Positions 39,950 to 42,514 of a DNA stretch of 58,529 nt are shown piece after piece. Both the position numbers and the translations under genes were made by a program. Positions within the stretch are counted from its first letter, which is position 1, and every line of letters starts with the position of its first letter. The stretch is from positions 1 through 58,529 of the forward strand of contig JANQNV010000167.1 of assembly GCA_028279425.1 (NCBI GenBank), given 5' to 3'. This DNA is from Longimicrobiales bacterium (GTDB lineage: Bacteria; Gemmatimonadota; Gemmatimonadetes; Longimicrobiales; Gaopeijiaceae). The notes below the pieces were generated by a model that made no database searches, was not told the DNA's origin, and saw nothing but the letters and a program-made list of their open reading frames with translations.

Positions 39950-40412
39950 GCTTTCGGACGTGACCGATGCCCCGGATCTTGCCGAACTTCTTGATGTCGA
40001 TGTGCATCAGTTGGCCCGGTCGCCGTTTCTCGTAGCGAACGATCGTCGGCCTTTGGGTCGAGGTCGCGAAGCCGGCTCAGACCGAGCCGCCGAAGCCACA
40101 GGCTGACCGTCGAGACGGCAAGCTCCAGGTGCGTCGCGATCTCCAGCCCCGTGATTCTCCGTCGGCGCAACCGGGCGATCCGACGCACACTCCCGGATCG
40201 AGACGTCGAGCGATATGGTGCGGACGGCTCGATCGATCCTTCAGGTCCTCGCGTCCTTCGCGGCGGAAGCGCCCCACCCACTTCGCGACCGTGCGCCGAC
40301 TCACGCCCATGTGACGGCCCACCAACCGCATCGGACGGCCCTTCTCCAACACCCTTCGGACGAGCTCCTCTCGACCTGAGGCCCTCAACTTCGCGTTGTG
40401 GTGCACGTTCAT
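39950..40412 (-). pseudogene. IS481-family transposase, N-terminal remnant with two frameshifts
   Basis: Starting at ATG 40412 the minus strand encodes MNVHHNAKLRASGREELVRR ... RTVAKWVGRFRREGREDLKDRSSRP, the helix-turn-helix start of IS481 transposases. Around 40190-40200 the homology shifts frame to SVRRIARLRRRRITGLEIA ... VSLWLRRLGLSRLRDLDP, and around 40040-40060 it shifts again to VRYEKRRPGQLMHIDIKKFG. After about 39950 the match ends, before the DDE catalytic core. So about 150 of roughly 320 residues survive in three frames: a dead fragment. It sits between argH and the stop of the DAHP synthase gene. Confidence 0.8.
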
Positions 40413-40502
40413 CGGGGGTCTCCTTCGGCTGGTCTGAAACGCTTCAAGCACCTCCAGCCCGCTCGGGGGAGTCCCCGGGAACAACCTGTTTAGGACGTAG
40501 AG

Positions 40503-41528
40503 TTATACGGCCGTCGCCACCGCCCGCCCAACCGCTTCGACGAAGGGGGTGAGGCCGTTCATCAGGGCTTCGAATTCGCTGAATGAGAGCGACTGATCGC
40601 CATCCGAGGTCGCGCGTTCGGGATCCGGATGCACTTCGACCAGGAGACCGTCTGCGCCCGCCGCGGCCGCCGCGTAGCTGAGGGGGGGCACCAGCGCTCT
40701 CGATCCGCCGGCGTGGCTGGGGTCGGCGAACACGGGCAGGTGCGTTTCCCGCTTGAGTACCGGGATCGCGGCGAGGTCGAAGGTATTGCGGGTGGCGGTC
40801 TCGAAGGTGCGAATCCCGCGCTCACACAGGATCACCTGCATGTTGCCCTGGCTCATCACGTACTCCGCAGCGAGAAGCAGGTCCTTGATCGTCGCGCTCA
40901 TCCCCCGCTTCAGGAGGACGGGGCGATGAAGGCGTCCCACCTCCGTGAGCAGGGCGAAGTTCTGCATGTTGCGCGCGCCGATCTGGAGCACGTCGGCGTA
41001 GCCGGCGACCAGCTCCACCTGCCGCGTATCCATCACCTCGGTTACGACGGGAAGCCCCGTCTCTTCACGCACCGCCGCGAGGATGCGTAGACCCTCCTCG
41101 CCGAGACCCTGGAAGGAGTAGGGTGAGGAGCGCGGCTTGAACGCTCCTCCGCGGACTCCGGCGGCCCCGCTGGCGCTCACATGCCGCGCCGTCGACTGCA
41201 TCATGTCGAAACCCTCCACGCTGCACGGGCCGGCGATGACCGAAAACCCATCGGGCCCGATCTCGCCGTGCCCCAGCGGGATCCGCGTCTCGCCCCCGGA
41301 GAACTCCCTCGACGCGAGCTTGTACGGCTTGAGCACCTCGTGAACGGCCTCGACCCCGGGAATCGACAGCAGAGGGATCGATTGGAGTCGCGCCTCGTCA
41401 CCGACGCATCCGATGATGGTGCGGTGCTCGCCGACCGAGAGGTGGGTGCGGAGGCCGAGCGATTCCACGCGCTCGCGAATGTGGTCGATGTCCTCGCGGG
41501 TCGCGCCCGCCTTCGTAACGATGATCAC
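40503..41528 (-). CDS. aroF: 3-deoxy-7-phosphoheptulonate (DAHP) synthase, class I-beta type
   Basis: 341 aa from GTG 41528, preceded by TTGGAG about 11 nt upstream. First committed step of aromatic amino-acid synthesis. Residues 1-70 are the ferredoxin-like regulatory extension ([17 protein letters not shown] ... [20 protein letters not shown]); the TIM barrel follows with [82 protein letters not shown] and [10 protein letters not shown] (metal His). This is the Thermotoga-type enzyme, inhibited allosterically through the N-terminal domain. A leader peptide rich in Trp and an intrinsic terminator lie directly upstream, so transcription is probably attenuated by tryptophan as well. Confidence 0.93.
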
Positions 41529-41542
41529 GGTGCTGTGTCTCC

Positions 41543-41582
41543 AAAAGAAAACGGGCCGCCAGGAAGAGGTCCCGGGGCCCGT
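41543..41582 (-). terminator. Intrinsic terminator in the DAHP synthase leader (attenuator)
   Basis: On the minus strand ACGGGCC (41582-41576) pairs perfectly with GGCCCGT (41557-41551); the inner CGGGA and TCCTG extend the stem with one wobble. The run TTTCTTTT follows at once (41550-41543), completing a classical rho-independent terminator 15 nt before the GTG. It starts 20 nt after the leader-peptide stop. Its 5' arm overlaps CCACGG, which can pair instead with CCGTGG at the third Trp codon (41621-41626), a candidate antiterminator. Confidence 0.75.
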
Positions 41583-41602
41583 GGGTCACCAAAGTGGGAG
41601 CG

Positions 41603-41701
41603 TCAGCACCCGTGTGGCGGCCACGGTCGTCGCCACGTCCAATACCGGAGGCCGGCCGTGCGGCGGCGCGAAGCGACAGGGTGTCGAGGCGAGTAGGTCA
41701 T
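41603..41701 (-). CDS. Trp/Tyr-rich leader peptide of the DAHP synthase attenuator
   Basis: A 32-codon frame from ATG 41701 to TGA 41603: MTYSPRHPVAS, then RYWTWRRPWPPHGC at the end. It has Tyr20, Trp21, Trp23 and Trp27 in eight codons (TAT TGG ACG TGG CGA CGA CCG TGG), far above chance. A stop 20 nt before a strong terminator and the following aroF gene fit the standard trp-type attenuation design: a ribosome stalled at the Trp codons when charged tRNA-Trp is scarce would favour an antiterminator. A near-consensus promoter puts the transcription start at or beside this ATG, so the leader peptide is probably translated from a leaderless end. The frame has no Shine-Dalgarno. Confidence 0.7.
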   Translation of the reverse strand: MTYSPRHPVASRRRTAGLRYWTWRRPWPPHGC

Positions 41702-41707
41702 GGTCGC

Positions 41708-41736
41708 AAGTTTCGCCCGCGATGGGCGCCCGTCAA
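41708..41736 (-). promoter_or_regulatory. Promoter of the DAHP synthase leader
   Basis: On the minus strand a -35 TTGACG (41736-41731), a 17-bp spacer and a -10 AAACTT (41713-41708) are followed after 6 nt by the leader-peptide ATG. The -35 matches consensus in 5 of 6 positions. Initiation 6-7 nt after the -10 falls on the ATG. Confidence 0.65.
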
Positions 41737-41798
41737 GCCGCTCCGGCACGAAACGAGGGTCCCCCGCGCCGCGGTCTAGCCCGGCTGCTCGGCGCCGC

Positions 41799-41804
41799 TG
41801 TACC
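41799..41804 (+). promoter_or_regulatory. -10-like TGTACC, 8 nt before rpiA ATG
   Basis: TGTACC, then TTCCTCGC and the ATG at 41813; the same arrangement as at 12394. No Shine-Dalgarno. It is divergent from the DAHP synthase leader promoter, 62 bp away. Confidence 0.4.
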
Positions 41805-41812
41805 TTCCTCGC

Positions 41813-42514
41813 ATGACTACACGAGAACAGTTGAAACGGGCGGCCGCCGGCGAGGCGCTGGCCCGCGTCGAGTCGGGGATGCGGCTCGGGCTCGGCACGG
41901 GCAGCACGATGCGACACTTCGTCGAGCTTCTGGCCGAGGCGGTCGAGGCGGGGCAGCTGAAGGACGTCGCGGGCGTTCCCACCTCGGTGGAGACGGCCGA
42001 CCAGGCGCGCGGCGCGGGGATCCCCCTCCTCGAACTCCACGAGGCCGGCCGCCTCGACCTCGCCATCGACGGGGCCGACGAGGTCGATCCGCGCCTCGAC
42101 CTCATCAAGGGCCTGGGCGGAGCCCTCCTCCGCGAGAAGATGGTGGCGCAGGCATCCGACCGCTTCGTGGTCGTGGCCGACGATTCGAAGTGGGTGTCGG
42201 GGCTGGGCACTCGGAGCCCGCTTCCGGTCGAGGTGGTCCGCTTCGGATGGCAGAGCCACCTGCCGAGCATCGCGGCGTTGGGCGGCGAGGCCACCCTCCG
42301 CACCGATGGGGCGGGGGAGCCCTTCGTGACCGACAACGGCAATGTGATTCTCGACTGCCGCTTCTGCGAGGGGATCGACGATCCGTTCGAGGTCCAGGAG
42401 CGGCTTCGCGCGCGTGCCGGCGTCGTCGACACGGGCTTGTTTCTGGGGATGGCCGACGAGGCCATCCTGGCGTCCGACACCGGTCTGACGGTCCGCACGC
42501 GCGAGGGCGTATGA
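41813..42514 (+). CDS. rpiA: Ribose-5-phosphate isomerase A
   Basis: 233 aa. Interconverts ribose-5-P and ribulose-5-P. Motifs: GMRLGLGTGSTMRHFVELL (phosphate-binding loop), VPTSVETADQA, LDLAIDGADEVDPRLDLIKGLGGALLREKMVA with the catalytic Asp/Glu/Lys, VVVADDSKWV, and VTDNGNVILDCRF. rpe overlaps its stop by ATGA (42511-42514), pairing the two non-oxidative pentose-phosphate isomerases. Erythrose-4-P supply for the neighbouring DAHP synthase is a functional link but the genes are divergent. Confidence 0.94.
   Translation: MTTREQLKRAAAGEALARVESGMRLGLGTGSTMRHFVELLAEAVEAGQLKDVAGVPTSVETADQARGAGIPLLELHEAGRLDLAIDGADEVDPRLDLIKGLGGALLREKMVAQASDRFVVVADDSKWVSGLGTRSPLPVEVVRFGWQSHLPSIAALGGEATLRTDGAGEPFVTDNGNVILDCRFCEGIDDPFEVQERLRARAGVVDTGLFLGMADEAILASDTGLTVRTREGV

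Follow-up and report, generated by a model that had tools for sequence, protein, structure and literature searches.

The gene for DAHP synthase (aroF) in the window, meaning here the whole 58,529-nucleotide stretch that was analyzed, is likely controlled by a ribosome-mediated transcription attenuator, the codon set of which is matched to the operon that follows. The family of leaders to which the window copy belongs is conserved and, as a family, probably functional. Somewhat more tentatively, we favor the view that these leaders represent a single leaderless design spread throughout the class of the window, with codons rewritten upon operon change, Phe-rich versions before pheA, and aroF leaders in Acidobacteriota as well.

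The window comes from Gemmatimonadota rather than Actinobacteria. It is one of the 339 contigs of a 5.4-Mb genome, and the named best relatives of its AroF are Gemmatimonadota records (L002 and L003, 75% to 76%; L005, 68%). The preliminary description had read upstream of aroF a promoter (TTGACG, 17 nt, AAACTT), an ATG 6 nt further on, a 32-codon frame with its stop, and a stem followed by a T-rich tail and the Shine-Dalgarno sequence and GTG of a DAHP synthase gene; all of these elements were recovered at the positions given for them, and the gene assignment is borne out by 2 protein models. The layout is as follows:

41813..42514, plus strand: rpiA, divergent from aroF, which limits the room for the aroF promoter
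41731..41736, minus strand: −35 element TTGACG, read from the sequence
41708..41713, minus strand: −10 element AAACTT, matching TATAAT at 2 of 6 positions (A2, T6), after a 17-nt spacer from TTGACG
41603..41701, minus strand: leader peptide open reading frame (ORF), 32 codons plus stop; its ATG (41701–41699), 6 nt past AAACTT, is the expected transcription start
41633..41644, minus strand: control codons Tyr-Trp-Thr-Trp, read from the sequence
41621..41626, minus strand: CCGTGG, candidate 5′ half of the antiterminator, including the third Trp codon
41579..41584, minus strand: CCACGG, candidate 3′ half of the antiterminator, overlapping the terminator stem at its base only
41571..41582, minus strand: terminator 5′ arm, ACGGGCC CCGGG, from reading and folding
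41551..41563, minus strand: terminator 3′ arm, CCTGG C GGCCCGT, from reading and folding
41543..41550, minus strand: T-rich tail TTTCTTTT, read from the sequence
41539..41542, minus strand: Shine-Dalgarno core GGAG of aroF, read from the sequence
40503..41528, minus strand: aroF, DAHP synthase, GTG start at 41528 (NF006421, TIGR01361)

The leader peptide reads MTYSPRHPVASRRRTAGLRYWTWRRPWPPHGC, and its stop codon, ending at 41603, is separated by 20 nt from the terminator stem, which contains a bulged C. With the aromatic cluster YWTWRRPW, the window leader is a Trp-rich member of its family without Phe. Because rpiA is divergent, the terminator most likely lies within the aroF transcript. Directly behind aroF, an N-terminal remnant of an IS481-type transposase (PF13011) occupies positions 40077–40484 of the minus strand.

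By itself, the window sequence is suggestive of an attenuator and falls short of proof. Among 1,000 dinucleotide shuffles of its upstream region, 14 equaled the window in carrying at least 4 aromatic codons within 8, and 10 reached 3 Trp codons within 8; a generic consensus scan of positions 41450–41900 reported no promoters and no terminators. CCGTGG (41626–41621) and CCACGG (41584–41579), which had been put forward as a 6-bp antiterminator, are indeed complementary, but the pairing is not beyond chance, since 525 of 2,000 shuffles contain a run of the same length, and it overlaps the terminator only partly. Folding of the 164-nt leader, which had been suggested as a check for competing structures, gave a z-score of −1.88 (12 of 200 shuffles were equally stable), and when the leader was folded at full length, the 6-bp pairing coexisted with most of the terminator; on account of this coexistence and of the overlap confined to the terminator base, the window switch may be weak or decayed. 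A competing structure did emerge when a ribosome was modeled with its A site on Tyr20 or Trp21: all free RNA through the terminator 5′ arm was then predicted to form a single hairpin (about −24 kcal/mol), with CCGTGG:CCACGG as its closing pairing. The same hairpin was not formed with Thr22 or Trp23 in the A site, and Arg24 or Arg25 gave another, weaker upstream pairing (−13.4), so that the modeled switch does not depend cleanly on the aromatic codons. The third Trp codon, being located inside CCGTGG, is probably not a control codon. Antitermination is the weak link of the model for the window copy.

The case for an attenuator is carried by the relatives. We analyzed 122 type-I aroF upstream regions (at least 59% identity, among the matches listed; one search sampled 249 genomes evenly), which belong to families f1 (66; the family of the window), f2 (5), f3 (4), f4 (9), f5 (37), and f9 (1); further f1 genomes, mostly of genus g25, and 6 less similar upstream regions (4 from f10, L220, and L221) were left out of this set. 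At least 4 Trp, Tyr, or Phe codons within 8 were found in 77 of the 122 regions, among the matches listed, versus 1 of 122 antisense controls and 119 of 6,100 shuffles, and at least 3 in 89 of 122. By family, the 4-in-8 cluster occurred in 31/66 (f1), 5/5 (f2), 4/4 (f3), 7/9 (f4), 30/37 (f5), and 0/1 (f9) regions. The 45 orthologs below this threshold include all 8 g11 loci and all 7 g25 loci examined, both groups being devoid of a leader. None of the 4 f10 copies, from Gemmatimonadota beyond the class of the window (L215, L217–L219), has a cluster, and upstream of them there appears to be the tail of a different gene. Among 23 less similar aroF copies, the cluster is absent in 21 and present in 2 (L236 and L240); L236 was rejected as a regulated gene, its ORF being long and chance-like. 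In place of a leader, the g11 loci L091, L093, L095, L096, L100, and L102–L104 have in common a TTGACTATATTGG-like stretch, which is strongly conserved, and behind it an inverted repeat of high GC content (GGGGCGCC ... GGGCGCC); this arrangement may represent a different type of control.

A terminator between the leader and aroF was detected with the stricter finder in 71 of the 77 cluster-bearing relatives. For the analysis of individual leaders, we assembled a set of 87, consisting of 81 with at least 3 aromatic codons within 8 and a terminator plus 6 added by hand that the terminator finder had missed (L083, L084, L179, L181, L184, and L197); L092, where the contig ends too near, and L105, where the terminator is absent, were not included. 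The looser finder placed a terminator in all 87 leaders, 81 of which had been preselected for having one. The segment following the control codons is predicted to pair with the 5′ arm of its own terminator with a mean energy of −24.3 kcal/mol, compared with −20.1 kcal/mol for segments from other genera (p = 3.6e-14) and −17.9 kcal/mol for shuffled segments (p = 2.7e-16; n = 87). Typical pairings are GGGAGCC with GGCTCCC in f1, CACGGGCCG with CGGCCCGTG in f2, f3, and f5, and GGGGTCG with CGGCCCC in f4. Taken singly, 56 of the 87 leaders beat 95% of their shuffles, and 16 of 87 beat 95% of the segments from other genera, which share similar sequences. When a stalled ribosome was modeled, the 5′ arm paired upstream with a mean probability of 0.79, as compared with 0.59 in shuffles; once the ribosome had reached the stop codon, the value was 0.36. 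The stalled value is the best over the control codons, a choice that favors it; leader by leader, this test was passed by 34 of 87 (for L082, the control cluster was restricted by hand to Tyr, Trp, Trp). In these models, the putative antiterminator exceeds its controls convincingly for the relatives as a set and weakly for single leaders.

The window copy scored poorly in the same tests: its stalled-state pairing (0.47) is the lowest of the 87 leaders, with 80% of 60 shuffles as good, its segment in the register of the relatives pairs at −11.3, with 36% of shuffles as good, and 4 aligned leaders of the same genus yielded no usable register against it. Together with the chance-level 6-bp pairing, this fits an alternative in which the family is real and the window copy decayed, having lost its antiterminator, with the terminator constitutively lowering aroF expression. 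The 45 orthologs without the cluster and the IS481-type remnant just behind the window aroF point the same way, as does locus L090, which by eye retains TTGACA, a leaderless-spaced ATG, and a terminator but has an ORF with one Tyr codon that runs into the terminator, and looks like a decayed attenuator. We consider decay of the window copy possible, though rather unlikely, given that the window retains the promoter–ATG spacing, the Tyr-Trp cluster, the stop codon, and the terminator, and that its modeled hairpin arises when Tyr20 or Trp21 occupies the A site but not when Thr22 or Trp23 does.

The attenuator reading further involves an unusual start of the leader peptide. TTGAC precedes the cluster in 73 of the 87 leaders (14 lack it there), and its distance to the first in-frame ATG, counted without choosing start codons for promoter fit, is 34 to 39 nt in 59 of the 73, with 33 at exactly 36 nt; 9 of the others have different distances, and 5 have no in-frame ATG. 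Promoter scores of at least 6.5 before the chosen ATG were obtained for 69 of 85 leaders versus 13 of 8,500 mononucleotide shuffles, a result tilted toward the leaderless reading because the starts had been picked for promoter fit within 4 to 9 nt. In the 70 well-scored promoters, the ATG mostly lies 6 nt (28) or 7 nt (28) behind the −10 element; the 17- to 18-nt spacer puts it 6 to 7 nt past that element, where transcription should start, and the window has the same geometry (TTGACG, 17, AAACTT, 6, ATG). A Shine-Dalgarno core accompanies just 4 of the 70 well-promoted leader ATGs, as opposed to 58 of 87 aroF starts. Judged from this arrangement of sequence elements, the leader peptides likely start leaderless, at the RNA 5′ end, and the leaderless start suggested in the preliminary description is probable; the attenuator-type leader and this start geometry both recur across the class.

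The 87 leader peptides contain a total of 264 Tyr, 138 Phe, and 71 Trp codons. Tyr is found in all 87 and Phe in 65; 42 leaders have all 3 aromatic residues, 23 have Phe and Tyr, 12 have Trp and Tyr, and 10 have Tyr only. Examples of clusters include FRWFYYF (L098), FYRWWYFY (L119), SYAYYYYY (L187), YYRFFWF (L194), and, from the genus of the window itself, RYWYF (L083). The earlier claim of a Trp attenuator is retained insofar as an attenuator-type leader precedes the DAHP synthase gene, whereas a Trp-specific type is not supported, since Tyr opens the window cluster and the codons in the relatives are mixed. A plain tryptophan attenuator, sensing Trp shortage alone, would fit the 3 Trp codons within 8 of the window and the Trp-dominated leaders of 3 f4 aroF-trpE loci (see below). 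It is nonetheless quite unlikely in view of this codon usage and of the position of the third window Trp codon inside the candidate antiterminator, and trpE, chorismate mutase, tyrA, and pheA were not found within the 1,500 nt downstream of the window aroF.

Two further alternatives bear on whether and how the leader is translated. The conserved stretch might be an untranslated DNA or RNA element, such as an operator or a riboswitch, and bases such as TGGTATCG do recur by eye in the Tyr-Trp stretch of f1. We regard this as very improbable, because synonymous codons are mixed (TAT 123, TAC 141, TTT 82, TTC 56), the codon alphabet tracks the operon content, and Rfam covariance models gave no match in the window, with the window leader and 10 relatives all below the gathering cut-off. 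Alternatively, the nascent peptide could arrest the ribosome upon binding a free aromatic amino acid, for which TnaC is the model. Arg often adjoins the aromatic residues by eye, which speaks for such arrest. Against it, the peptides differ greatly in sequence and yet retain their density of aromatic residues, and the enrichment of synonymous codons that are rare in the aroF genes accords with stalling during decoding: over the same 16 loci (2 further loci were omitted for length), TAT stands at 18:20 in the leaders versus 9:77 in the aroF genes, and TTT at 14:16 versus 13:129. TnaC-like arrest appears highly improbable, slightly more so than an untranslated element.

The composition of the control codons follows the genes behind aroF. 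Operon context was assessed for 60 of the 87 leaders and for 3 aroF-trpE copies; gene identity was checked with Pfam for 1 chorismate mutase, 1 tyrA, and 2 trpE genes and rests on tblastn for all others, “solitary” meaning that tblastn found none of chorismate mutase, tyrA, pheA, and trpE in the 437 to 1,600 nt downstream. Clusters before solitary aroF (n = 33) contain Trp in 28, Tyr in 33, and Phe in 25 cases, versus 3, 25, and 17, respectively, of those before aroF with chorismate mutase and/or tyrA (n = 25). The difference in Trp presence is significant (Fisher, 2.5e-8), including when family f1 is removed (9/12 solitary versus 3/25; p = 2.8e-4) and under permutation within families (p = 0.0036), the latter being the sole correction for relatedness within families. 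Two genomes contain both arrangements: G182 has YYRFFW before the solitary copy and FCYFSPFTF before the copy with chorismate mutase, and G279 has YYRFFWF and YFSPF, respectively. The 3 aroF-trpE leaders, all from family f4, are Trp-dominated, namely WWWPW (L240, genome G129), WWPW (L220, G189), and WYWSW (L221, G211), with TTGAC–ATG spacings of 36, 38, and 36 nt, respectively; these are less similar aroF copies, and among the 23 such copies mentioned above, the downstream region was read for L240 only. Two aroF-pheA loci, placed in neither the solitary nor the chorismate mutase/tyrA class, have all 3 aromatics. Among 30 pheA loci, 3 from family f4 have leaders rich in Phe, the promoter spacing of which is the same (FAFFFFGF in L282, DFWFFYF in L292, and SWFFGYF in L298), and a fourth match, L272, is doubtful; the aroF-trpE and pheA leaders together have spacings of 35 to 38 nt. 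The tyrA loci were retrieved for operon context alone. None of 30 trpE upstream regions (L241–L270, 420 nt each; 59 genomes with a match) reached 3 aromatic codons within 8, L241 scoring 2, and the trp link is therefore not a general feature of trp operons in the class of the window.

Similar leaders appear to extend beyond this class. A set of 80 named aroF loci spanning many phyla includes 15 with at least 4 aromatic codons within 8. Of these, 2 are from Gemmatimonadota and 5 are Acidobacteriota-type records (L041, L052, L054, L060, and L068; the other 2 records of this type, L040 and L077, fall short); the 8 other matches were taken for chance or left undecided. The 5 Acidobacteriota-type leaders, for example, SYASSFSFRFWPFA (L060) and FYASSFSYRFWHFA (L054), are followed by a terminator and look real as far as sequence can tell, and in 3 of them (L054, L041, and L068), the ATG follows a −10-like box at a distance of 9 nt. 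In a separate set of 34 Acidobacteriota loci, 3 of which are from genomes already among the 80, 13 reach 4 in 8. By eye, L391–L393 (NWFWWSWRF or close), L398, L400, and L402 look like real leaders; L377, L381, L386, and L399 do not.

From the codons, the spacing, the terminator, the pairing in the relatives as a set, and the correlation with the operon, all of which are displayed by the sequences, we infer the start point, ribosome stalling, termination, and antitermination. Transcription, to judge by the geometry, would start at or beside the A of the leader ATG, and the ribosome would load onto the RNA at its 5′ end rather than at a Shine-Dalgarno sequence. With ample charged aromatic tRNAs, it would reach the leader stop codon, allowing the terminator to form and transcription to end before aroF. 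A shortage of tyrosyl- or tryptophanyl-tRNA would instead halt the ribosome in the Tyr-Trp cluster, the RNA behind it could pair with the terminator 5′ arm, and aroF would be read. In relatives that also have Phe codons, scarcity of any end product would raise the enzyme, in the manner of an OR gate. Which codons are present follows the operon, with all 3 amino acids for solitary aroF, Tyr and Phe with chorismate mutase or tyrA, and mainly Trp for aroF-trpE.

In Escherichia coli, repressors, isoenzymes subject to feedback inhibition, and separate attenuators share the control of aromatic biosynthesis. If the proposed mechanism is true, a single cis-acting RNA would integrate all 3 aromatic end products where the pathway begins, and attenuation in this little-studied phylum would usually rely on leaderless initiation, providing a testable handle on its regulation. 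The agreement of the codon sets with operon content may be viewed as a natural experiment on attenuator evolution, with 2 within-genome pairs.

The classical leader-peptide attenuators are those of trp and pheA in Enterobacteria. In common with them, the aroF leaders have a terminator ahead of the first gene, a short ORF containing control codons, and, as predicted for the relatives as a set, an antiterminator that competes with the terminator; they differ in controlling the common first enzyme, in their mixed Tyr, Phe, and Trp codons, in that most starts have no Shine-Dalgarno core, and in their occurrence in Gemmatimonadota. Several end products per leader are also counted by the ilvGMEDA leader, which registers several branched-chain amino acids, belongs to a different pathway, and starts from a Shine-Dalgarno sequence. 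The control codons of trpL in Sinorhizobium meliloti are for Trp only. This trpL (peTrpL) ORF starts at the RNA 5′ end and acts as an attenuator (PMC7298713), both of which are predicted for the aroF leaders, and differs by its control of trpE(G); a leader peptide at the 5′ end, described earlier as unusual, therefore has a precedent.

Among Actinobacteria, leader-peptide attenuators are reported for trp operons of Corynebacterium and Streptomyces (PMC1262725). The statement in the preliminary description that Trp leaders before DAHP synthase are known in this phylum found no backing in that survey, which names trp operons and trpS and the main text of which does not mention aroF, aroG, or DAHP (PMC1262725). 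An aromatic leader peptide, quoted as Phe-Tyr-Phe, does precede aroF in Corynebacterium glutamicum (PMC4046766); it concerns one locus, for which 3 aromatic residues and no Trp are quoted, and the operon-matched codon sets seen here are not part of the description given there. The uORFC-13-1 motif, which precedes aroF in Acholeplasma, combines an upstream ORF (uORF), a terminator stem, and aroF, as do the leaders studied here, and differs by the presence of a ribosome binding site (RBS) and by at least 1 Phe codon from the U run; it comprises 24 sequences from one genus and environmental DNA (PMC8632094). In the open literature searched, we found no relevant report on Gemmatimonadota with a leader peptide, an attenuator, or leaderless, and no leader peptide with tyrosine codons. 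Amino acid-rich leaders for other amino acids are represented by the cysteine-rich uORFs of mycobacteria, included in a study of leaderless transcripts (PMC4633059) and without a conserved terminator hairpin in the actinobacterial survey (PMC1262725), and by the C. glutamicum ilvBNC leader, which, according to a title cited in PMC4046766, is initiated without an RBS, as is predicted for the aroF leaders. As far as we have seen, every ingredient has a precedent, and what is new is the operon-tuned, mixed aromatic codon set deployed as a leaderless, class-wide system.
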